A stretch of DNA of 64,000 bases, from contig NZ_UAPQ01000006.1 of assembly GCF_900444995.1 (NCBI RefSeq), positions 248,001 through 312,000 on the forward strand, given 5' to 3'. The notes beneath the pieces were generated by a model. It saw nothing but the letters and a program-made list of their open reading frames with translations, was not told the origin of the DNA and did no database searches. Of the stretch, positions 2,254-18,216 are shown piece after piece (the first letter of the stretch is position 1; every line of letters begins with the position of its first letter). Source of the DNA: Actinomyces bovis. GTDB taxonomy: Bacteria > Actinomycetota > Actinomycetes > Actinomycetales > Actinomycetaceae. The position numbers were made by a program, and so were the translations under genes.

Positions 2254-2273
2254 AGCAGGTCTTCAGACCTGCT
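2254..2273. terminator. Short inverted repeat between convergent genes
   Basis: A 9-bp perfect inverted repeat (AGCAGGTCT and AGACCTGCT, 2-nt centre) lies at the junction of the convergent GT4 and rmlCD genes and overlaps the rmlCD stop codon. The loop is very tight and no T-run follows on either strand, so terminator function is only a guess. Confidence 0.3.
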
Positions 2274-3693
2274 ACTCGCCCAGGTACCGCTCCAGGCCCT
2301 CGGTCCAGCTCTCGGGGGTGAAGCCCGTGGCCGTCAGCTTGCTCAGGTCCAGGGTGCTGTGGGCTGGGCGGGGGGAGATACCCTCATGGCCTGCGTAGTA
2401 CTCCGCGGTGGTTACAGGGGAGACGTCCTGCGGGTTGTGCCCGGTGAGCTGGTAGACCAGCCTGGCAACCTCGTACCAGGAGGCGGCCGGGCCCGTGCCA
2501 GAGAGGTTGTAGGTGCCGTAGGGGGCCTGCGTGGACAGCAGGTGGATGATGCCTGCAGCCAGGTCCTTGGTGAAGGTCAGGCGCCCAACCTGGTCGCAGA
2601 CTACCTGCGGCTTGGTGCCCCGCCGGGCCAGCTCGGCCATGGTCCGCACGAAGTTGCGGCCCTCGCCCACGACCCAGCTGGTACGCACCAGGTAGTGCGT
2701 GGGGCAGGCGGTGGCAGCGGCGTCGCCCCCGGCCTTCGACTGCCCGTAGACACCCAGCGGGCTGGGGGCCTCGTCCTCCAGATGGGTCTCGGCGCTGCCG
2801 TCAAAGACGTACTCGCTGGAGACGTGCACCAGGGTCAGGCCGTGCCTGCTGGCGGCGCGGGCCAGGTGGGCCGGGCCGGTGGCGTTGGCCTGCCATGCCT
2901 GGCTACGTCCGGCTGCGCTCTGCGCCCCGTCGACGTCGGTCCAGCCAGCCGCGTTGACCACGACGTCGTAGGCAGACCAGTCAACCGCCTGCACGGTGGC
3001 GGGGTCGGAGATGTCGAAGTCGGGCAGGTCCACGCCGGTGGCCGTGAACCCGGCGGCGGGCAGCTGGCGCATCAGCTCGCGGCCCAGCTGGCCCTTGGCC
3101 CCCGTGACCAGCACGCGGCGTCCCCGGGCGGGCAGGGCGGGGAAGGGCGTGACCTGCTCCAGGCGCGGGTGGGCCTTGTCCTTGTCAGAGAGGATCGCCT
3201 GCTCCAGGGGGATGGGCCAGGGCACGGCCACCGTCTCGTCAGCCAGGTTCAGGAAGGTATACCGGGCCTCGGGGGACCAGTGGTCGTTCACCAGGTAGGT
3301 GTAGGCAGTGTTGGGCTCCAGGGTCTGGTAGGCGTTGCCCACGCCCTTGGGCACGTACACGGCTACTGAGGGGTCGATCTCACAGGTGTAGACCGTACCG
3401 AAGGTAGGGCCCTCACGCAGGTCCACCCAGGCGCCGAACACACGGCCGGTGGCCACGGAGACGAACTTGTCCCAGGGCTCGGCGTGGATGCCGCGGGTCA
3501 CGCCCACCTCGTCGTTGAAGGAGATGTTGTTCTGGACCGGCCCGAAGTCCGGCAGGCCGAGCGCCAGCATCTTCTCGCGCTGCCAGTTCTCCTTGAACCA
3601 GCCCCGGTTGTCCCCGTGGACAGTCAGGTCGATACGCAGGAAGCCAGGGATGGGCGTGGTCTCGATCCTCAGGGGCTTGGGGGTCATGGTCAT
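2272..3693 (-). CDS. rmlCD: Fused dTDP-4-dehydrorhamnose 3,5-epimerase / dTDP-4-dehydrorhamnose reductase
   Basis: This single 473-residue protein carries the last two steps of dTDP-L-rhamnose synthesis. Residues about 1-185 are the RmlC cupin epimerase (GDNRGWFKE, TRGIHAEPWDKF). Residues about 190-473 are the RmlD reductase, an NADPH-dependent SDR with Rossmann motif VTGAKGQLGREL and catalytic YGQSK. RmlC and RmlD are separate proteins in most bacteria, but this fusion recurs in Actinomyces and bifidobacteria. The start has an in-frame alternative ATG two codons later. rmlA is at 15256-16128 in this window and rmlB is not in it. The product feeds rhamnosyltransferases of the surrounding cluster. 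Confidence 0.95.
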   Translation of the reverse strand: MTMTPKPLRIETTPIPGFLRIDLTVHGDNRGWFKENWQREKMLALGLPDFGPVQNNISFNDEVGVTRGIHAEPWDKFVSVATGRVFGAWVDLREGPTFGTVYTCEIDPSVAVYVPKGVGNAYQTLEPNTAYTYLVNDHWSPEARYTFLNLADETVAVPWPIPLEQAILSDKDKAHPRLEQVTPFPALPARGRRVLVTGAKGQLGRELMRQLPAAGFTATGVDLPDFDISDPATVQAVDWSAYDVVVNAAGWTDVDGAQSAAGRSQAWQANATGPAHLARAASRHGLTLVHVSSEYVFDGSAETHLEDEAPSPLGVYGQSKAGGDAAATACPTHYLVRTSWVVGEGRNFVRTMAELARRGTKPQVVCDQVGRLTFTKDLAAGIIHLLSTQAPYGTYNLSGTGPAASWYEVARLVYQLTGHNPQDVSPVTTAEYYAGHEGISPRPAHSTLDLSKLTATGFTPESWTEGLERYLGE

Positions 3694-3794: not shown

Positions 3795-3829
3795 GTTCAT
3801 GGATGTTGGTTCATGGTCTATATTCGAAC
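3795..3829 (+). promoter_or_regulatory. Candidate leaderless promoter and direct-repeat operator of the lic operon
   Basis: A good -10 element TATATT lies at 3819-3824, five bases before the ATG at 3830, the spacing expected for leaderless transcription. Two exact copies of GTTCATGG (3795-3802 and 3809-3816) sit directly upstream in the -35 area, and TTCGAA follows at 3823-3828. No Shine-Dalgarno sequence precedes any of the candidate starts. The repeats are plausible binding sites for the MarR-like domain at the N-terminus of the gene's own product. Confidence 0.45.
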
Positions 3830-5689
3830 ATGCTGATGACTCTGCCGCACCTGAACGTGAGGTTCTCCTTGCCCAATGACCTGAGCCAAGGCCAGTTCGA
3901 CGTCCTGCACGCGCTCCACCGCACCCAGGCCGCCCTCACCCAGCGCCAGCTGGCCCAGTCCACCGGCATGAGCCTGGGAGCCGTCAACACCACGGTGCGG
4001 GCGCTGGAGGCCACCGGGCTCGTCAGGGACCGGCAGCTGACCCCGGCAGGCCGGGCCGCCCTGGAGCCCTACCGCGTGGAGAACGCCGTCATCATGGCCG
4101 CGGGTATGTCCAGCCGCTTCGCCCCCATATCCTACGAGCGCCCCAAAGGCACCCTCAAGGTGCGCGGCGAGGTCCTGATGGAGCGCCAGCTGCGCCAGCT
4201 CCAGGAGGCGGGCATAACCGACGTCACCATCGTCGTCGGCTACAAGAAGGAGTACTTCTTCCAGCTCGCCGAACGCTACGGGGCAAAGCTCGTGGTCAAC
4301 CGGGAGTACGCCTCACGCAACAACAACGGCTCCCTGTGGCTGGTGCGCGAGCAGCTGGGCAACACCTACGTGTGCTCCTCAGACGACTACTTCACCGTCA
4401 ACCCCTTCGAGTCGCACGTGTACAAGGCCTACTACTCGGCCCAGTACGCCTCCGGCCCCACCGAGGAGTGGTGCCTGACCACCGGCGCTGGCGGGCGGAT
4501 CACCGGCGCCACCGTAGGCGGGGCAGACGCCTGGACCATGCTCGGCCACGTCTACTTCGACCACGCCTTCTCCACCAAGTTCCGCGAGATCCTGGAACGC
4601 GTCTATCACCAGCCGCAGACCGCTCCCAAACTGTGGGAAGCCATCTACCTGGACCACATCAAAGAACTCGACATGGTCATCCGCAAGTACCCTGACGGGG
4701 TCATAAACGAGTTTGACTCCCTAGATGAACTGCGAGCCTTCGACCCCCACTTCCTGGAGAACCTGGATTCTGAGGTCTTCGACAATATCTCCACGGCGCT
4801 GGGCTGCTCCCCGGAAGAGATCACCGCCTTCTACCCACTCAAGCAGGGCATCACCAACCTCTCCTGCCACTTCGCAGTGGGTGACCAGGAGTATGTCTAC
4901 CGCCACCCGGGGGCTGGCACCGAACAGATTGTGGACCGCCAGGCCGAGTTTGAGGCCCTAGGGCTGGCCTCGGAACTGGGAGTGGACTCCACCTTCGTCG
5001 TCGGTGATCCCACCAAAGGCTGGAAGATCTCCCGCTTCATCCCCGAGGCCCGCAACCTGGACCCCAACAACGCCCAGGAACTGGAGGACGCCATGCGCAT
5101 GTGCCGCCAGGTTCACCAATCTGGTAGGCAGTTGTCCCGGAGCTTCGACTTTGTGACTGAGGGACTGCGGTACGAATCCCTGCTTAAGGGGCACGGCCCC
5201 ATCGACGTACCCGGCTATGAGGAGCTACGGACCAAGGTGCTGCGGCTCAAGGAACTAGCAGACGCAGACGGACTGGCGCTCGTACCCAGCCACAACGACT
5301 TTTTCCCACTTAATTTCCTGGTAGACCCCACCGGCAAGCTGGACCTGATCGACTGGGAATACGCTGGCATGTCTGATGAAGCCAGTGACTACGGCACCAT
5401 GGTGGTCTGTGCCGAACTCAACGAGGAACTGTCCGAGCGAGCCCTGCGCGCCTACCTGGGACGCCCAGCCACTCCGGTGGAAGAACGCCACTACCGGGCC
5501 TACGTCATCTTTGCCGGCTGGTGCTGGTATGTGTGGTCTTTGCTCAAAGAGCGTGAGGGCGACGACGTCGGCGAATGGCTGCTGGTCTACTACCGGCACG
5601 CCACCGGTGGCCTAGACGAGCTACTTACCCGCTACGAGCGGGCGCAGGACTTGGCTGATAACGCTTCCAAGACGGAGGTCCAGGCATGA
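3830..5689 (+). CDS. licCA: HTH - CTP:phosphocholine cytidylyltransferase (LicC) - choline kinase (LicA) fusion
   Basis: This is a three-domain protein of 619 residues. A MarR-type winged helix occupies about 12-75 (LSQGQFDVL, MSLGAVNTTVRALEATGLV). A LicC-like nucleotidyltransferase follows from about 84, with AAGMSSRF at 90-97 and ERPKG. From about 335 there is a LicA-type choline kinase with H488-N-D490 (SHNDFFPLNFL) and the metal-binding D508 (LIDWEYAG). The protein would phosphorylate choline with ATP and activate it to CDP-choline in the cytoplasm. It overlaps licB by 4 bp (ATGA). The start was chosen because ATG 3830 follows a -10 box closely; ATG 3803 and 3836 are alternatives. Specificity for choline rather than ethanolamine is inferred from the licB/licD context. 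Confidence 0.9.
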   Translation: MLMTLPHLNVRFSLPNDLSQGQFDVLHALHRTQAALTQRQLAQSTGMSLGAVNTTVRALEATGLVRDRQLTPAGRAALEPYRVENAVIMAAGMSSRFAPISYERPKGTLKVRGEVLMERQLRQLQEAGITDVTIVVGYKKEYFFQLAERYGAKLVVNREYASRNNNGSLWLVREQLGNTYVCSSDDYFTVNPFESHVYKAYYSAQYASGPTEEWCLTTGAGGRITGATVGGADAWTMLGHVYFDHAFSTKFREILERVYHQPQTAPKLWEAIYLDHIKELDMVIRKYPDGVINEFDSLDELRAFDPHFLENLDSEVFDNISTALGCSPEEITAFYPLKQGITNLSCHFAVGDQEYVYRHPGAGTEQIVDRQAEFEALGLASELGVDSTFVVGDPTKGWKISRFIPEARNLDPNNAQELEDAMRMCRQVHQSGRQLSRSFDFVTEGLRYESLLKGHGPIDVPGYEELRTKVLRLKELADADGLALVPSHNDFFPLNFLVDPTGKLDLIDWEYAGMSDEASDYGTMVVCAELNEELSERALRAYLGRPATPVEERHYRAYVIFAGWCWYVWSLLKEREGDDVGEWLLVYYRHATGGLDELLTRYERAQDLADNASKTEVQA

Positions 5690-6624
5690 GGTACGGCATC
5701 CTTTCCGGCGCCACCTGGGGCCTTGACACCGTCATTTTGGCCATGGCCGTGGCCCTGGCCCCCTTCCTAGGAGCCTCTGAGGCACCGCTGGCCAGCGCCC
5801 TGGTGCACGACCTAGCTAGTGCCCTGATCCTCTTGGCCTATATGGGTCTGCGCGGGCGCCTCTCCCACAGCCTGGCTGCCCTGCGCACCCGCAGTGGCAA
5901 AGTGGTGGTCTTAGGGGCACTGCTGGGCGGGCCAGTGGGCATGAGTGGCTATCTGGTGGCCATCAACAATATTGGCCCGGCCTACACCGCCATCATCTCC
6001 ACCTTCTACCCAGCCGTAGGCACCTTCCTGGCCTTTGTGTTCCTCAAGGAACGCCTGCGTCCTCACCAAGTGGTGGCGCTGCTGGTGGCCCTGGGCGCCA
6101 TAATCGCCATTGGCTGGTCTTCCTCCAACGATGCCACCCACGGCAACGCCTGGCTGGGTATCGCGGGAGCACTGGCCTGCGTGGTGGGCTGGGGCTCTGA
6201 AGCCGTGGTGCTCACCTGGGGCATGCGGGATGACGCCGTGGACAATGAGACGGCCCTGCACATACGTCAGACCACCTCCGCGCTCGCTTATCTGGTGGTG
6301 GTGGCCCCCTTGACCGGGGTCCTAGGCTTCAGCTTCCAAGCAGCCCTAACCCCAGCCACCGGCGTCATAGTGTTGGCCGCCCTGGCAGGCTCAACCTCAT
6401 ACTTGTTCTACTACAAGGCTCTGGGCACAATTGGGGCCTCACGTGGCATGGCTTTGAATATCTCCTACTCGGCTTGGGCGGTGGTGTTCGCCTTCCTGCT
6501 TCAGGGCAGTGTTCCCACGATCTTGCAGGTGGGCGGCTGCGTGGTGCTCCTGGTGGGCACAGTGCTGGCAGCCACCCCCAATTGGCGTGATCTGGGCCTC
6601 GGCCGTCAGTTCCGCCAGGCCTGA
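5686..6624 (+). CDS. licB: LicB-like choline permease (EamA/DMT superfamily)
   Basis: This 312-residue polytopic membrane protein shows about ten hydrophobic helices arranged as two EamA repeats. The first repeat ends in AIISTFYPAVGTFLAFVFLKERL, the usual end-of-repeat signature of drug/metabolite transporters. It starts inside the last codon of the HTH-LicC-LicA gene, so the two are translationally coupled. In lic operons the DMT member LicB imports choline for phosphocholine decoration, and this position supports the same role. Without the context it could only be called an EamA family transporter. Confidence 0.88.
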   Translation: MRYGILSGATWGLDTVILAMAVALAPFLGASEAPLASALVHDLASALILLAYMGLRGRLSHSLAALRTRSGKVVVLGALLGGPVGMSGYLVAINNIGPAYTAIISTFYPAVGTFLAFVFLKERLRPHQVVALLVALGAIIAIGWSSSNDATHGNAWLGIAGALACVVGWGSEAVVLTWGMRDDAVDNETALHIRQTTSALAYLVVVAPLTGVLGFSFQAALTPATGVIVLAALAGSTSYLFYYKALGTIGASRGMALNISYSAWAVVFAFLLQGSVPTILQVGGCVVLLVGTVLAATPNWRDLGLGRQFRQA

Positions 6625-6741: not shown

Positions 6742-7620
6742 ATGGCGTCTGATGCTGTGCATGACCCAGAGCTGCTGGCGCAGATCCACAAGCTGCTACT
6801 CAAGATGCTGGGCGACTTTGATGCCGCCTGCCGCCAGCTGGGCATCCCCTACTCGGTTTACGGCGGCACCATGATTGGCGCTATTCGACATCAGGGATTC
6901 ATTCCCTGGGACGACGACGTGGACGTGCTCATGACCCGGGAGGACTACGAGCGCTTCCTGCGGGAGGCGCCCGCGGTGATGGGAAGCTCCTACCGTTTTG
7001 ACAACACCCGCTCCCTGCCTGAATACCCCTATATGTTCACCAAGCTCGGCCTGGTTGACACCCTCCTGATTCCGGAGTTTGCCCGCAACGCCAAGTACCG
7101 CATGCCGGTGAGCATGGACCTTCTGCCTTTGGATACGGTGCCTAAAGACCCGGCCGCCTTCCGTTCCCAGAGCCGAGCCACCTGGCTGTGGGGCCGCCTA
7201 CTGTTCCTCACGGGCACCCCCACCCCGATGCTCATCAACACCCATGGCCCTAAGCGCTGGGCTATCTACACCGCCACGTCCTTGGCCTACTGGGGGATGC
7301 GGCTCGCCCGGGTCACTCCCCGGCGGCTTCAAAAGCTGTGGGAACGTGCGGCCACCCGGCACAACCAGGAGCCCACTGGGCGCTTCACCGACTTCTCCAT
7401 GCGGGACCCGGAGAACTGGGCGGTGGATTTAGAGGAGATTCAGCCCCCGCTGGATATGCCTTTTGAGAACATCACCGTGCAGGTCGCTCCCGCTTACGAC
7501 GCCATGATGCGCCGCACCTACGGGGACTACATGGAGCTACCGCCGCTGGAACAGCGCCGAAACCACAAGCCCGTAGAGGTTCAGCTCGGCCCCTACCTAG
7601 ACCCACAGCCTGAGGCCTAG
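6742..7620 (+). CDS. licD: LicD family phosphocholine transferase
   Basis: This 292-residue LicD family protein carries the nucleotidyltransferase-like core near its N-terminus: GGTMIGAIRHQGFIPWDDDVDV, split here as GGTMIGAIRH at 41-50 and the metal-binding W56-DDD-V-D61. A strong AGGAGGGTG ribosome site precedes the ATG. LicD proteins move phosphocholine (in some relatives other phospho-groups) from the CDP-activated form to a sugar of a surface glycan. It lies 117 bp after licB, with no obvious promoter, and 5 bp before a flippase gene. This suggests the glycan is modified before export. The acceptor sugar is unknown. Confidence 0.92.
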   Translation: MASDAVHDPELLAQIHKLLLKMLGDFDAACRQLGIPYSVYGGTMIGAIRHQGFIPWDDDVDVLMTREDYERFLREAPAVMGSSYRFDNTRSLPEYPYMFTKLGLVDTLLIPEFARNAKYRMPVSMDLLPLDTVPKDPAAFRSQSRATWLWGRLLFLTGTPTPMLINTHGPKRWAIYTATSLAYWGMRLARVTPRRLQKLWERAATRHNQEPTGRFTDFSMRDPENWAVDLEEIQPPLDMPFENITVQVAPAYDAMMRRTYGDYMELPPLEQRRNHKPVEVQLGPYLDPQPEA

Positions 7621-7625
7621 AGCAG

Positions 7626-8861
7626 ATGGCTTCTGAGACGCGTAGGGCCTCCCTGAAACGCGACTACCTCTGGAATACGGCCTCCTCCCTGATGAACGCG
7701 GCAGCCACCGTCATCATGGGCATGGCGGTGGCCCGAATGGGCACCTTGGAAGCTGCCGGCGTGTTCTCCCTGGCTCTAGCCATGGGCCAGCAGTTCCAGA
7801 CCCTAGGGGCCTACGAAGTACGCACTTACCAGGCTACTGACCTACGCGATGGACTGCCCTTCGGGGTGTACCTGTCCACCCGATACTTGACGGTCGCCCT
7901 CATGCTGTTGGGCATCTTCGGGGCGGTCCTGGCTTCACCCAGCGCCAGGGGTAGCGCCTTGGTGGTGGTGCTCATCGCCTCGCTTAAATGCTTTGAAGCA
8001 TTTGAGGACGTTATCTACACAGAGTTCCAGCGGGTAGGGCTGCTGCATGTGGGGGCGCGCGCCTGCTTCTGGCGCATGCTGCTTACCACCGTTGCTTTCT
8101 GCGCTGGTCTCGCGCTAGGCCATTCCTTGTGGCTCGGGGCGGTTGCGGGTCTGCTCACTGCCGCTGTGACCACTCTGGCGCTTTACATCCCCGCTATGCG
8201 TGGAGTGCTGCCTTGGCGGCCGCAGTGGTCCCGGAGTCAAATGAAGCGGCTGTTAATCGACTGCCTGCCACTCTTCCTGGGCTCTTTTATTGCCACCTAT
8301 TTGGCTAACGCCCCTAAGTACGCCATTGATCTGTACCTGGGTGAGGCCCAGCAAGGTTATTTCTTGATCTTGTTCATGCCAGCGATGGTGGTCAACCTGG
8401 TCTCCCTGATGGTTTTCCGGCCACTGCTCACCACGATGGCGCAGCGCTGGACCAGTGGCGACCTCACAGCTTTCAAGGCGATCATCCGGCGTGGGCTGTT
8501 GACGGTTGGGCTGGCCTCCGTGGTGGTGGCGGTGGTTACCTATTTGATTGGTGCCCCCCTGCTGGGGGCTGTCTTTGGCAAAGACGTGTCCGCCTTTGTG
8601 CCTGAACTCATGGTGCTGGTGGCAGGTGGTGCCCTGAATGCCGCCTCGGTGATCCTCTACTACGCCCTGACCACTATGCGCCTCCAGCGGCTGGTGTTCA
8701 TCGGCTACGTCGTCTGCGCTTTAGTGTCTACTGGGGCTATGGCGCTCCTGGTGCCTGCTGGCGGGCTCATGGGTGCCTGCATGGGGTACGCCTTAACGAT
8801 GGCTGCACTGGTGTTCGCTTTCCTGACTGGTATTTGGTATACGCGCAAAGGACGACGCTGA
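7626..8861 (+). CDS. Wzx-like polysaccharide/lipid-linked oligosaccharide flippase
   Basis: This 411-residue protein has about twelve hydrophobic helices and an MATE/MOP-type N-terminus (ASLMNAAATVIMGMAVARMG), where a cytoplasmic start precedes the first helix. Its overall pattern matches the O-antigen/teichoic-acid flippase family (Wzx). It begins 5 bp after licD and so is co-transcribed with it. The inferred job is to flip the undecaprenyl-linked, phosphocholine-bearing repeat unit across the membrane. The base composition looks less GC-rich than flanking housekeeping genes, as is common for polysaccharide genes, but this was not calculated. Confidence 0.82.
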   Translation: MASETRRASLKRDYLWNTASSLMNAAATVIMGMAVARMGTLEAAGVFSLALAMGQQFQTLGAYEVRTYQATDLRDGLPFGVYLSTRYLTVALMLLGIFGAVLASPSARGSALVVVLIASLKCFEAFEDVIYTEFQRVGLLHVGARACFWRMLLTTVAFCAGLALGHSLWLGAVAGLLTAAVTTLALYIPAMRGVLPWRPQWSRSQMKRLLIDCLPLFLGSFIATYLANAPKYAIDLYLGEAQQGYFLILFMPAMVVNLVSLMVFRPLLTTMAQRWTSGDLTAFKAIIRRGLLTVGLASVVVAVVTYLIGAPLLGAVFGKDVSAFVPELMVLVAGGALNAASVILYYALTTMRLQRLVFIGYVVCALVSTGAMALLVPAGGLMGACMGYALTMAALVFAFLTGIWYTRKGRR

Positions 8862-9876: not shown

Positions 9877-11766
9877 TCAGTCACCTAGAGCGATCACATT
9901 GACCTGGTGTTTGGGCTGGCAGTCCTGCACCTCCTGAGAGACCTGGGCCAGATGTGCCTTTGAGGTGATGACCGTAGCCTCCTTCTGCCAGTCGGCAAGC
10001 AAAGGGCATAGCAGACGCTCGTAGTAGCGGGCGTCAATCTTGGCGTATGCGTGCTTACGCACATTGTGGCTGGTGGGTGCGGAGAATTGAATCAGGAAGC
10101 GGTTGCGGTCAGCGTCGGTCTCGAAGCTTTCAGACTGGCGGATAAAGACTTGAGTCCCGCCGGGATTGGCGTCATAGACCTCGATCAACTCTTGGTAGGC
10201 CAGGCGGTCCAGATTCTCTGGGGTGACATCCCAGCGCTCAATCTTGTGTAGCGGTGCCAGTGCAGGGCGCAAAGCGCCAGAGTTCGCCGGTTCCAGAACG
10301 ACGCCCACAAGAACTGCGGCAGCCAAGGCTACGGTCAGGCCCTGACGCGCCCGAAACCAGCGGCTCTGCTTCGCCGCTAAACCGTGAGAACTTCGTGCGC
10401 CTGCGCTCAGAGCCTCGGAGGCAAGCAGTGCAGCGGTGGTAATAGAAGCAATGAACAGCATCTTGACTGGGTAGTAGCCCCATTGCTTGTCATTGGCGTC
10501 GCGTAGGAACAACAAGATCGCGATCGCGGCCCAGCCGCCAAAGGCAACTCCGCCCAAGCCCACCGCAACGAACCGGTTTGCGTGCGGAGCTAGGAGAGTA
10601 AATGCCAATAGCAGGAACAATACGACGATGCCAGCGAGGATGTTTCCGTCAACGAAGTTTCGGGTGAAGGCTGGTCCAGATGTCAGGTAGTCGCCGCTGG
10701 TCTGAATGGACGGCAGCACCACAAAGATGCAGTAGAGCAGCAGGAGTGCCCAAGATGCCCCGGTCAACAGGACTTCTCTGCTGGTTAGCGGTGCGTTAGG
10801 CAGGGCGCGCAGACGGCGCATGAGCTGTGCCAGCAGCAGCATCCCAGGAATAAGTGCAGCGACTGACCAGGTGGCCAGGCAGACCAGGATCATCAGAGAC
10901 AACCAGGGCAGCGACTCCCCACACTCAAGGGTGCGGTACAGCACCCAGGTCGTCACCAGGACCAGGAATATCGCGGCGATATTCATATAGCCATTGCGTG
11001 CAGCGATACCTAGCAAAGCCCCGGAGTATGGAATCCAGCCGATGATTATCAGTCCTACTGCCCGGGCTGGTGTCTTGACTCCGCCCATAAGGGCGCTGGT
11101 GGTCCAGGTGAGTAGCCCGCTAGCGGTGGCGCAAATGACCCCTAATGCGACCACATTGCCCATGAGCATGGTGCGAAGTGAGGGGTTGCCGGTGCCGGGC
11201 CCATAAAAGATAGATTCGATCGCAGCGGTGAGGAAGACCGGTTTGATCTCGTCTCCGGTGCCTTGGCCTCCGTTGAGGTGAATAGTCAGCCCCTCAATGG
11301 TGTTCATGACCATGTCATTGCGCATAAAAGGTAAAGGCAGAACGCCATAGCTTTGTGTCACCAGAAACAGATCCGCGGTGCCCACGAGAATTGGTGCCAA
11401 GATGGCGCTGATGGTCAGCCAGGGCCAGCTTGCCACACGGTTCCACAGGTGCTTTTCGGCAGTGGCACCTCTAGCTGCTGCGTCAGAGCCAGCCGCTCCG
11501 TCTACCTTGCTAGCAGGTTGCAATCGGCGCCGGGCCAGCAGACCGCCCAGGACCAGTGGGGTCAGCACACCAGCCCAGAAGACCAGTCCTAGGCGCCCTA
11601 GTCCCAGCCTGGGAGCCAGAACTGTGGTGGCGACCAGAGCGAGCAGGGTGGACGCGATTACCTTCGCAGCATTGCGAAGACAAAGGAAGGTCAAGGCTGG
11701 AGACGCTTTCAGATCGGCCCTACGACTGAGTGCCGTTAGGAGTGGGCAGGGAAACAAGATAAGGCT
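9877..11766 (-). CDS. Large polytopic membrane protein, possible GT-C type glycosyltransferase
   Basis: I do not recognise the family. The protein has about 629 residues with roughly twelve hydrophobic segments, then a C-terminal soluble part of about 130 residues (from ERWDVTPENLDRLAYQEL). A long loop between early helices (MRNDMVMNTIEGLTIHLNGG) would lie outside. This layout resembles GT-C enzymes that use polyprenyl-phosphate sugars, such as those adding side chains to wall polysaccharides. The nearby GacI/GacJ-like pair would make such a donor. The start is uncertain: GTG 11766 and TTG 11901 both lack a clear ribosome site. It is divergent from the acyltransferase gene. Confidence 0.65.
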   Translation of the reverse strand, partial: SLILFPCPLLTALSRRADLKASPALTFLCLRNAAKVIASTLLALVATTVLAPRLGLGRLGLVFWAGVLTPLVLGGLLARRRLQPASKVDGAAGSDAAARGATAEKHLWNRVASWPWLTISAILAPILVGTADLFLVTQSYGVLPLPFMRNDMVMNTIEGLTIHLNGGQGTGDEIKPVFLTAAIESIFYGPGTGNPSLRTMLMGNVVALGVICATASGLLTWTTSALMGGVKTPARAVGLIIIGWIPYSGALLGIAARNGYMNIAAIFLVLVTTWVLYRTLECGESLPWLSLMILVCLATWSVAALIPGMLLLAQLMRRLRALPNAPLTSREVLLTGASWALLLLYCIFVVLPSIQTSGDYLTSGPAFTRNFVDGNILAGIVVLFLLLAFTLLAPHANRFVAVGLGGVAFGGWAAIAILLFLRDANDKQWGYYPVKMLFIASITTAALLASEALSAGARSSHGLAAKQSRWFRARQGLTVALAAAVLVGVVLEPANSGALRPALAPLHKIERWDVTPENLDRLAYQELIEVYDANPGGTQVFIRQSESFETDADRNRFLIQFSAPTSHNVRKHAYAKIDARYYERLLCPLLADWQKEATVITSKAHLAQVSQEVQDCQPKHQVNVIALGD

Positions 11767-11921
11767 CACCAGGCAACCAAAGCCGGTCGAGGTATGCGGC
11801 TCGCATGCTACCGCAGACAGCGCGGGCCGGAACAATGACCAGCTGCAAGGCCTGGCAGAGGTGGGGCATGACACTGATTCCGCCCAGCGACCACTGTTCA
11901 AGGGGCCGTGAGGCAGTGGCT

Positions 11922-17490: not shown

Positions 17491-18216
17491 CTAAGTCAGG
17501 GTGGCGCCTTCCTGTCTCCGGGCTACCTCCAGGATTGCCTCATCGGCATCGGGCGAGACCAGCACTGCGCGGCGTCCGCTTTCCCAGGCCCGCAGGCAAC
17601 CCAACAGTGCTGCTTGCGACGTGGACTCATGTACCAGCAGGGGAGTGTGGGAGGCGGTGGGAAGAGCGGTTTGTACTGCCTCTAATAGTTCTTGCCAAGT
17701 CCAGGTGGCCGACTCCGGGCTGTTAGTGACCAGGGCGGAGGCCTGTGGGGGAGCGGTTACGGCAGGAAACTGATCGGGGTAGGTCATGAGGTCGGCGGCG
17801 CCATCTAGGACCAGCGGGGGAAGTTCTCCCGGCCAGCGCAGGGCCAGGGACGGCAAGGGGAGCAGCACCTGCGCTGCAGCGCTAGGTAAGAGGTGTTCAG
17901 GGGCGGAGGCCACTGAGAGTCCGACGGCGTCGCTGGCGGGAGTGCCTAGCTCCACTGTGCCGCCGGCTCGCCAGGTGCCGCAGGCCCACACGATCATTCG
18001 CCAGTGGACCGGGAGTGCAAGATGAACCACCGGCAGGCCGAAATCGTTACCGTTTCCCGCCTCAATGGTGACCATGGCAGCGACCTTCGAAAGCCATTTC
18101 CCCAGCACTGGCCCGCTCAGTTCGATTCTTTCCACCGGGTCATACCAAGTCAGCGCGGCTGCCTTCCTAGAATATGCAGATTCTAGGATCGCATTAAGAT
18201 TGCGATTCCCTAACAA
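17491..18216 (-). CDS. TIGR03089 family protein (truncated AMP-binding-enzyme relative)
   Basis: This 241-residue protein resembles the first part of adenylate-forming enzymes: WYDPVERIELSGPVLGKWLSKVA, GLPVVHLALPVHWRMIVWACGTWRAGG. It has no phosphate-binding loop of the SSGTTG type and no C-terminal domain. This matches the TIGR03089 family of actinobacteria (Rv3268 in M. tuberculosis), whose function is unknown. It is probably not an active ligase. The TTG start at 18216 has a strong AGGAAGGTGAG ribosome site just upstream. The gene is divergent from whiB2. Confidence 0.8.
   Translation of the reverse strand: MLGNRNLNAILESAYSRKAAALTWYDPVERIELSGPVLGKWLSKVAAMVTIEAGNGNDFGLPVVHLALPVHWRMIVWACGTWRAGGTVELGTPASDAVGLSVASAPEHLLPSAAAQVLLPLPSLALRWPGELPPLVLDGAADLMTYPDQFPAVTAPPQASALVTNSPESATWTWQELLEAVQTALPTASHTPLLVHESTSQAALLGCLRAWESGRRAVLVSPDADEAILEVARRQEGATLT

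Follow-up and report, generated by a model that had tools for sequence, protein, structure and literature searches.

A choline kinase and cytidylyltransferase fused to a MarR-like helix-turn-helix, with a conserved inverted repeat as candidate operator of its own gene

Introduction

Phosphocholine is a surface tag by which bacteria mimic the host, and its known switches are mostly phase variation through repeats in licA or the dependence of growth on choline. In the window analysed in the present work, which is the whole 64,000-nucleotide stretch of Actinomyces bovis DNA, the open frame at 3803-5689 (+) is confirmed to encode in one gene a MarR-type winged helix, a LicC-like cytidylyltransferase and a LicA-like choline kinase, and it is the single match at E <= 0.001 across the organism's own 2.6 Mb genome. 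The question raised by this locus is what a DNA-binding domain does at the front of a choline-activating enzyme, and in particular whether enzyme and regulator are one molecule, as an earlier note on this DNA had suggested.

The presence of phosphocholine epitopes and Lic-1 enzymes in Actinomyces is already published: PMC10434233 lists both A. viscosus and A. gerencseriae as holders of Lic-1 enzymes whose phosphocholine is documented by TEPC-15 recognition alone. The main text of that paper (figures apart) contains none of the words “fusion”, “fused” and “helix-turn-helix”, and neither the fusion nor an operator is described in the titles and abstract openings that literature searches of an open-access library listed. 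What is new here is a conserved inverted repeat upstream of HTH-licCA genes. The present work computes the fold and domain order of the protein, its active-site residues, the conservation of the repeat, and the association of the repeat with the recognition helix of the fused domain.

Results

Domain order, predicted structure and start codon

The order of Pfam matches along the protein is MarR_2 (E 1e-9, above the gathering score), NTP_transf_3 or NTP_transferase, and APH or Choline_kinase. A phmmer search against the sequences of the PDB aligns S. pneumoniae LicC (1jyk) with residues 72-305 at E 1e-37 and LicA (4r77) with residues 317-595 at E 5e-32. The AlphaFold model of the whole fusion protein has a mean pLDDT of 91.1. 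The reading of a MarR-type domain joined to LicC and LicA stands. In the structural comparison the cytidylyltransferase domain matches LicC 1jyk with a TM score of 0.92 by target length (E 8e-21), and the kinase domain matches LicA 4r7b with 0.87 by target length.

In the model of the whole protein the HTH consists of helices at residues 7-19, 25-32 and 36-48, a short wing and a further helix at 59-68; modelled alone, it has a mean pLDDT of 94.1. Its structure-based search returns a MarR-like fold: the neighbours are mostly MarR proteins, 3e6m reaching a VIA Z of 12.5 for 69 residues, and they also include other winged-helix proteins (Csa3, Rio2, CggR); the Foldseek E values are modest, 3e-3 at best. 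The MarR_2 profile is matched at 1e-3 in 31 of 32 aligned HTHs, and the putative DNA contacts Q25, R26, S35, G37 and N40 rank among the most conserved residues of the domain. As judged from the models, the N-terminal domain is a MarR-like HTH rather than a complete MarR protein, since the dimerisation helices that flank the HTH in MarR are absent from the AlphaFold models, in which six residues precede the first helix and the domain stops at residue 68, continuing directly into the nucleotidyltransferase.

The gene probably starts at TTG 3869 rather than at ATG 3830, the start given in the earlier note. This choice is preferred because ATG 3830 sits within the conserved operator and promoter block, because an SD-like sequence precedes the TTG (Table 1), and because the start codon lies just ahead of the LTQPQF motif in most orthologues of the genus, matching the position of TTG 3869; the L012 orthologue, which has a longer N-terminus, is the exception.

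Table 1. Coordinates of the fusion gene, its domains, its neighbours and the putative upstream signals in the window
Position	Strand	Feature	Basis
3795..3799	+	putative operator half-site 1, GTTCA; -35 region of predicted promoter	sequence; conserved in orthologues
3819..3824	+	putative -10 (TATATT), flanked by half-sites 1 and 2	by eye, including promoters of the genus
3825..3829	+	putative operator half-site 2, CGAAC (not TGAAC), 25 bp past half-site 1	sequence, orthologues
3852..3856	+	third half-site, TGAAC, 22 bp past half-site 2; frequent within the genus	sequence; spacing-52 peak in 25 of 95 regions
3857..3862	+	SD-like GTGAGG, 6 nt 5' of TTG 3869	sequence, inference
3869..5689	+	HTH-licC-licA fusion gene (606 aa when started at TTG)	Pfam, phmmer, AlphaFold, orthologue alignment
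3869..4072	+	MarR-type winged helix, residues 1-68; SLGAVN of recognition helix at residues 35-40	Pfam, AlphaFold, structure search
4082..4738	+	LicC-like cytidylyltransferase domain, residues 72-290	phmmer, AlphaFold, structure search, alignment
4772..5683	+	LicA-like choline kinase domain, residues 302-605	phmmer, AlphaFold, structure search, alignment
5686..6624	+	licB-like choline permease (EamA/DMT family)	Pfam; assigned to LicB solely from its EamA family and position
6742..7620	+	licD phosphocholine transferase family gene	Pfam PF04991, E 5e-34
7626..8861	+	probable but weakly assigned polysaccharide flippase	homologue match, locus order

Active sites

The correspondence between residues of the fusion and those of LicC and LicA was read by hand off the phmmer alignments to 1jyk and 4r77, with the roles of the LicA residues taken from the accessible text of PMC4364537. 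Residues K93, D172, W256, E281, D283, H475, D477, D495, W553 and W556 are conserved in all 37 of the 37 aligned rows and Y498 in 36, and W570, the fourth position of the aromatic box, is aromatic in 26 rows and a gap in 7. By alignment and model, the LicC fold and the catalytic Lys and Asp residues are retained, as are the LicA kinase fold, the catalytic Asp and the aromatic choline box, W570 less so. Three positions are substituted: LicC D105 is replaced by Ser (S170), LicC D192 by Glu (E257) and LicA E213 by Cys (C514). Position 201, which corresponds to LicC W136, is Tyr in 12 of the 37 rows.

Operon neighbours

Pfam bears out the licB-like and licD genes that the earlier note had placed downstream, and leaves its flippase weakly assigned, since the product of 7626-8861 has no Pfam match of its own, Polysacc_synt being matched in one of eight homologues (E 8e-5), and a sequence search of the PDB gave no relative (best E 0.82, an unrelated integrase). 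Encoded together, LicA, LicB, LicC and LicD constitute the Lic-1 pathway gene set by sequence, and the order LicCA, LicB, LicD, flippase recurs in A. gerencseriae (L080) and other Actinomyces. The expectation that strains with the operon display phosphocholine is answered in favour for one species, since A. gerencseriae, which carries the operon, is also recognised by TEPC-15 (PMC10434233).

Among 72 named loci, a LicB relative occurs somewhere in 35, an NCS1 permease in 13 and an ABC protein in 5, and no transporter partner was found in 19, some of these loci being short. The NCS1-type permease (Transp_cyt_pur) replaces LicB in L122, L124, L131, L140, L141, L142, L144, L145, L146, L147, L151, L152 and L153, which are mostly from Firmicutes. 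Adjoining the lic operon in the window, 2272-3693 (-) encodes an RmlC-like epimerase and an RmlD reductase in one protein (Pfam). Two long frames, 9877-11901 (-) and 17491-18216 (-), have no Pfam match at 1e-4; the product of the former resembles a membrane protein by composition.

Distribution of the fusion

Within the genus, 30 of 49 genomes carry a near full-length match to the fusion, the organism's own among them; the family count is 35 of 151, and that for genomes drawn from the phylum is 18 of 396 (own included; in one the match begins only at model position 42). In a clostridial class 13 of 291 genomes have such a match, as do 2 of 299 in the class to which a Streptococcus belongs, and both of these counts include the centre genome. 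One further family genome, G161, has a LicCA without the HTH (L044), additional to the 35. The best 80 named loci of 548 candidates come from Actinomyces, Schaalia, Atopobium, Olsenella, Collinsella, Slackia, Gardnerella and others, and also from Streptococcus oralis, Parvimonas and Clostridium; 78 of these 80 align from query residue 1-9, so that the HTH region is included. The view of the fusion as an actinobacterial oddity is thus wrong, since it is found across Actinobacteria, Streptococcus and Clostridia: its spread among host-associated Gram-positives of mouth and gut is wide but patchy, and takes in several phyla.

Variants of this architecture also occur. The fusion gene of one member of the genus (G022:C3:61798-62757; L023, L050) looks decayed, since it is matched only as three fragments. 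At L089 11424-12311, and also in L090, L092 and L138, a two-domain HTH-nucleotidyltransferase lacks the kinase and lies near genes for an ABC solute-binding protein, an ATPase and a GT4; it is perhaps a sister system for another substrate. In the clostridial class, L182-L189 form a diverged group with HTH, nucleotidyltransferase and kinase, most with a GMRMVPIN motif.

A conserved inverted repeat upstream of the fusion gene

The repeat was first noticed by eye. In the promoter alignment of the genus it appears as GTTCA, about 25 bp, TCGAAC, about 22 bp and TGAAC, and across phyla GTTCA-N24..26-TGAAC stands at the equivalent place in the named loci. A set of 95 upstream regions was assembled from 73 of the 80 named loci and 22 loci of the genus, in which some species appear in both sources so that the rows are not independent; L128, L129, L135, L148, L154, L155 and L156 were left out by a hand list. 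In this set GTTCA-N24..26-TGAAC/CGAAC is present in 77 of the 95 regions, with the half-sites 25 bp apart in 62, 24 in 10 and 26 in 7. For comparison, the wider pattern with N23-27 was counted in 19,000 stretches drawn at random from these loci, where it occurs in 383 (2%), and in 19,000 mononucleotide shuffles, where it occurs in 21. The half-sites extend weakly to TGTTCA and TGAACA, and the spacer is otherwise little conserved.

Counts by class used a wider operator pattern, in which GTTCG was allowed and 300 bp upstream were considered. By this pattern the site precedes 22 of 22 genes in the genus, the organism's own (1/1), 11 of 18 in other members of the family, 35 of 49 in Coriobacteriia, 7 of 7 in Bacilli (all Streptococcus), 3 of 6 in Clostridia and 0 of 1 in Desulfovibrionia. 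In four exceptions (L088, L117, L142 and L151) the site lies 1.8-2.9 kb upstream, and in L088 and L117 this distant site precedes an upstream licCA-licB pair.

A consensus promoter scan of the region upstream of the window's fusion gene gave no promoter. In S. oralis L146 half-site 1 falls within the spacer of a perfect 12-of-12 TTGACA-N17-TATAAT promoter, and since it lies between -35 and -10 the placement of the putative operator fits repression. Promoters of a split lic1 served as a negative control in S. oralis: the DD16 region (L173) has no site and the DD15 region (L174) has one, at a distance of about 3 kb from licA, and two regions are too small a sample for a count. Six loci (L087, L095, L096, L098, L123 and L101) carry a pair of inverted repeats that stand in tandem or overlap; some of them have abutting TGAACGTTCA, as though a multimer might line up along the DNA.

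Association of the repeat with the recognition helix

If the fused HTH reads the repeat, then the repeat would be expected chiefly where the recognition helix is intact. An intact helix was defined by the pattern [SA][LVI]G.[VIA]N, which was chosen after the sequences had been viewed, and the count covers 133 of 135 proteins, L128 and L135 being dropped because little upstream DNA was available, though L135 does have a site. A site lies within 300 bp of 93 of the 107 genes with an intact helix versus 8 of the 26 with a degenerate one (Fisher p 3e-8, kinship ignored); four of the 14 intact-helix genes without a site in this range have one farther upstream. Kinship was taken into account with a FastTree tree of the enzyme part, from which the HTH had been removed, and which yields 11 independent pairs. 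On average 5.9 of these pairs go in the direction of the association, 0.1 go against it and 5.1 are undecided; p has a median of 0.03 and ranges from 0.008 to 0.375. The test is thus marginal, and the independent contrasts agree weakly with the association.

The site tends to be missing where the helix is degenerate or absent, as in L041, L044, L046, L076, L150 and L158. L112-L114 retain the site though their HTH lacks the recognition helix; the genome of L113 also carries the intact copy L089 (both are from strain SK9K4), which could act in trans on the L113 site. A later clostridial set is mixed: the site is present in L181, whose helix reads SLGTAN, and absent from L178-L180, whose helices have diverged; L177 repeats the gene counted above as L150. 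Seven of the eight remoter clostridial genes L182-L189 have an intact-type helix; four of the eight have no site, and in the other four every match to the pattern overlaps the open frame at its 5' end. These genes either use another site or break the rule.

Likely extent of the regulon

Some sites stand apart from licCA. They precede a gene for an ABC solute-binding protein in L089, L090, L092, L138 and L130, the licB gene in L099, and a second EamA gene in L101. As a control, the other open frames of the named loci were scanned, and 26 of 583 have a site, 15 of which are the licCA site seen from another open frame. The remaining 11 of the 583 regions include L094 (a repeated licCA site) and L142 (another nucleotidyltransferase), with L099 counted twice; the L081 site may be due to chance.

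A wide regulon was considered and rejected, as there is no genome-wide excess in the window's genome and most of the sites in those other genomes that do show an excess are inside frames. The pattern GTTCA-N24..26-YGAAC has 19 strand hits in the window's genome versus 22 for the reversed control. With a stricter pattern, five of eight other genomes are not clearly above the reversed control and three exceed it (16 versus 5 in G1194, 20 versus 4 in G1196 and 18 versus 1 in G1198). These three genomes have 31 distinct sites. Open frames of at least 150 codons, some of which are possibly spurious in GC-rich DNA, contain 23 of them, and five of the eight sites outside frames are licCA or transporter sites. 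The other three, GTTCA-N24..25-TGAAC sites in L233, L246 and L251, are away from lic genes and outside long frames; that of L251 (G1196:C1:2151515-2151551) is AT-rich, as the operators at lic genes are. From the lack of a genome-wide excess and the identity of most of the sites outside frames, the regulon is likely to consist of the fusion's own gene and nearby transporters.

Discussion

A probable enzyme-repressor of choline activation

The fusion is probably a trifunctional choline activator and repressor, which would work in the manner of NadR or BirA by reading its own choline metabolites and controlling choline uptake and activation. That the protein autoregulates is likely, and somewhat firmer than an ordinary presumption, since the same paired DNA signal usually precedes its gene; that it senses through its active sites is plausible, about as easily true as false. 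The suggestion of enzyme and regulator in one molecule draws real support from the MarR fold, the conserved repeat, its association with the recognition helix and the transporter sites, and DNA binding is its conjectural part.

We infer DNA binding, repression, the oligomer, the ligand and the sign of the response in the following scheme. Choline would enter through the LicB-like permease and be turned into phosphocholine by the kinase, the cytidylyltransferase would make CDP-choline, and LicD would transfer phosphocholine onto a surface glycan. The MarR-type winged helix would bind the TGTTCA and TGAACA half-sites, which lie 30 bp apart centre to centre and span the promoter, and a dimer or higher assembly, its HTHs kept apart by the enzyme domains, would block RNA polymerase; in some relatives the protein may also bind the copies of the repeat that precede transporter genes. 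Choline, CTP, phosphocholine or CDP-choline in the active sites would presumably alter DNA binding, so that the operon would track the supply of choline or the demand for it, much as NadR responds to NAD and BirA to biotin.

Extended to all of the relatives, this scheme describes a cross-phylum family of choline enzyme-repressors which take the signal from their own active sites, and in which an enzyme-bridged dimer clamps half-sites about three helical turns apart at the family's own promoters and at genes for choline-type transporters, the operator travelling with the gene between phyla and providing bacteria of the mouth and gut with a portable, self-contained switch for phosphocholine decoration. 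The extended form is tentative, and we give it slightly less than an even chance.

Alternatively, the repeat could be bound by a choline regulator that is a protein of its own, and the fused HTH could serve only as a dimerisation or scaffolding module. This is how L112-L114, which keep the site in the absence of the recognition helix, and L182-L189, most of which have the helix and no clear site, would be read; but the site tends to vanish where the fused helix is degenerate or missing, a separate regulator would need to travel with the gene across phyla, and in the L113 genome the intact copy could supply the function, so we regard such a regulator as unlikely. It is less probable still that the HTH has ceased to bind DNA and that the protein is an ordinary bifunctional LicCA enzyme: the HTH-less LicCA of L044 implies that the enzymes do not need the domain, yet its putative DNA-contact residues are among its best conserved over phyla, and the operator is conserved too. 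The location of an inverted repeat near the 5' end of a gene would also suit a role in RNA, as a long-loop hairpin or leader attenuator. This reading was rejected as highly improbable, because half-site 1 in S. oralis is located between -35 and -10, and the transcript would not include it; in addition, the arms have just 5-6 nt around a loop of 25 nt, and the spacer shows little sequence conservation.

A different matter is the substrate, which could be another amino alcohol or phosphonate, such as ethanolamine or 2-aminoethylphosphonate, at least in the clade with the NCS1 permease. In the accessible text of PMC6697681 the positions of LicC D105 and D192 are tied to the choice between choline and aminoethylphosphonate, and PntC has Glu at the D192 position, as the fusion does; the Ser at the D105 position, the Cys in place of LicA E213, the Tyr that recurs at position 201 and the replacement of LicB in the 13 NCS1 loci point the same way, as do three oral Streptococcus genomes with the NCS1 permease which also have separate licA-like and licC-like matches. 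Most of the LicA aromatic choline box is kept, however (Y498, W553, W556), the Actinomyces neighbours are licB-like and licD genes, and A. gerencseriae with its operon is TEPC-15 positive, so that another substrate is unlikely, though it deserves some weight.

If the preferred reading of a self-regulating choline enzyme is correct, then commensals of the mouth and gut would couple host choline to the decoration of their surface through one enzyme with a defined operator.

Comparison with known systems

The nearest relatives of the enzyme domains are S. pneumoniae LicC (1jyk) and LicA (4r77), which share their fold and catalytic residues with the fusion, but which are separate proteins without an HTH and have the D105 and E213 that are replaced in it. 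A fused licC and licA is reportedly present in Treponema (Kent et al. 2004), where it is said to serve membrane phosphatidylcholine. In the PntC-AEPT fusion (6pd1/6pd2), which was found by the structure search, a LicC-like domain is likewise fused to a second enzyme, whereas the substrate is a phosphonate and a transaminase takes the place of the HTH and kinase.

The biotin ligases of BirA group II resemble the fusion in that an N-terminal winged HTH is carried by an enzyme that represses its own pathway, and in the accessible text of PMC6391492 and PMC4016012 two subunits contact the two half-sites of an inverted repeat. They differ from the fusion in the enzyme, and in that the fusion's HTH is of the MarR type with half-sites 30 bp apart centre to centre. 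The closest parallel in design is NadR of Enterobacterales, in which an HTH is joined to an NMN adenylyltransferase and a ribosylnicotinamide kinase and in which NAD and ATP control DNA binding (PMC12421817, in its accessible text). Both proteins have an N-terminal HTH, a nucleotidyltransferase and a kinase in the same order and serve a single salvage pathway, but NadR belongs to the NAD pathway rather than to that of phosphocholine, and it represses several separate NAD genes, whereas the fusion would appear to control its own gene and neighbouring transporters. Neither NadR nor BirA is among the listed Pfam and PDB sequence matches of the fusion, which by sequence is LicC and LicA with a MarR-like HTH; the likeness to NadR and BirA would be one of the way of working only. 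If it holds, the fusion would provide a second example of the NadR design of HTH, nucleotidyltransferase and kinase, in another pathway, and a useful choline biosensor.
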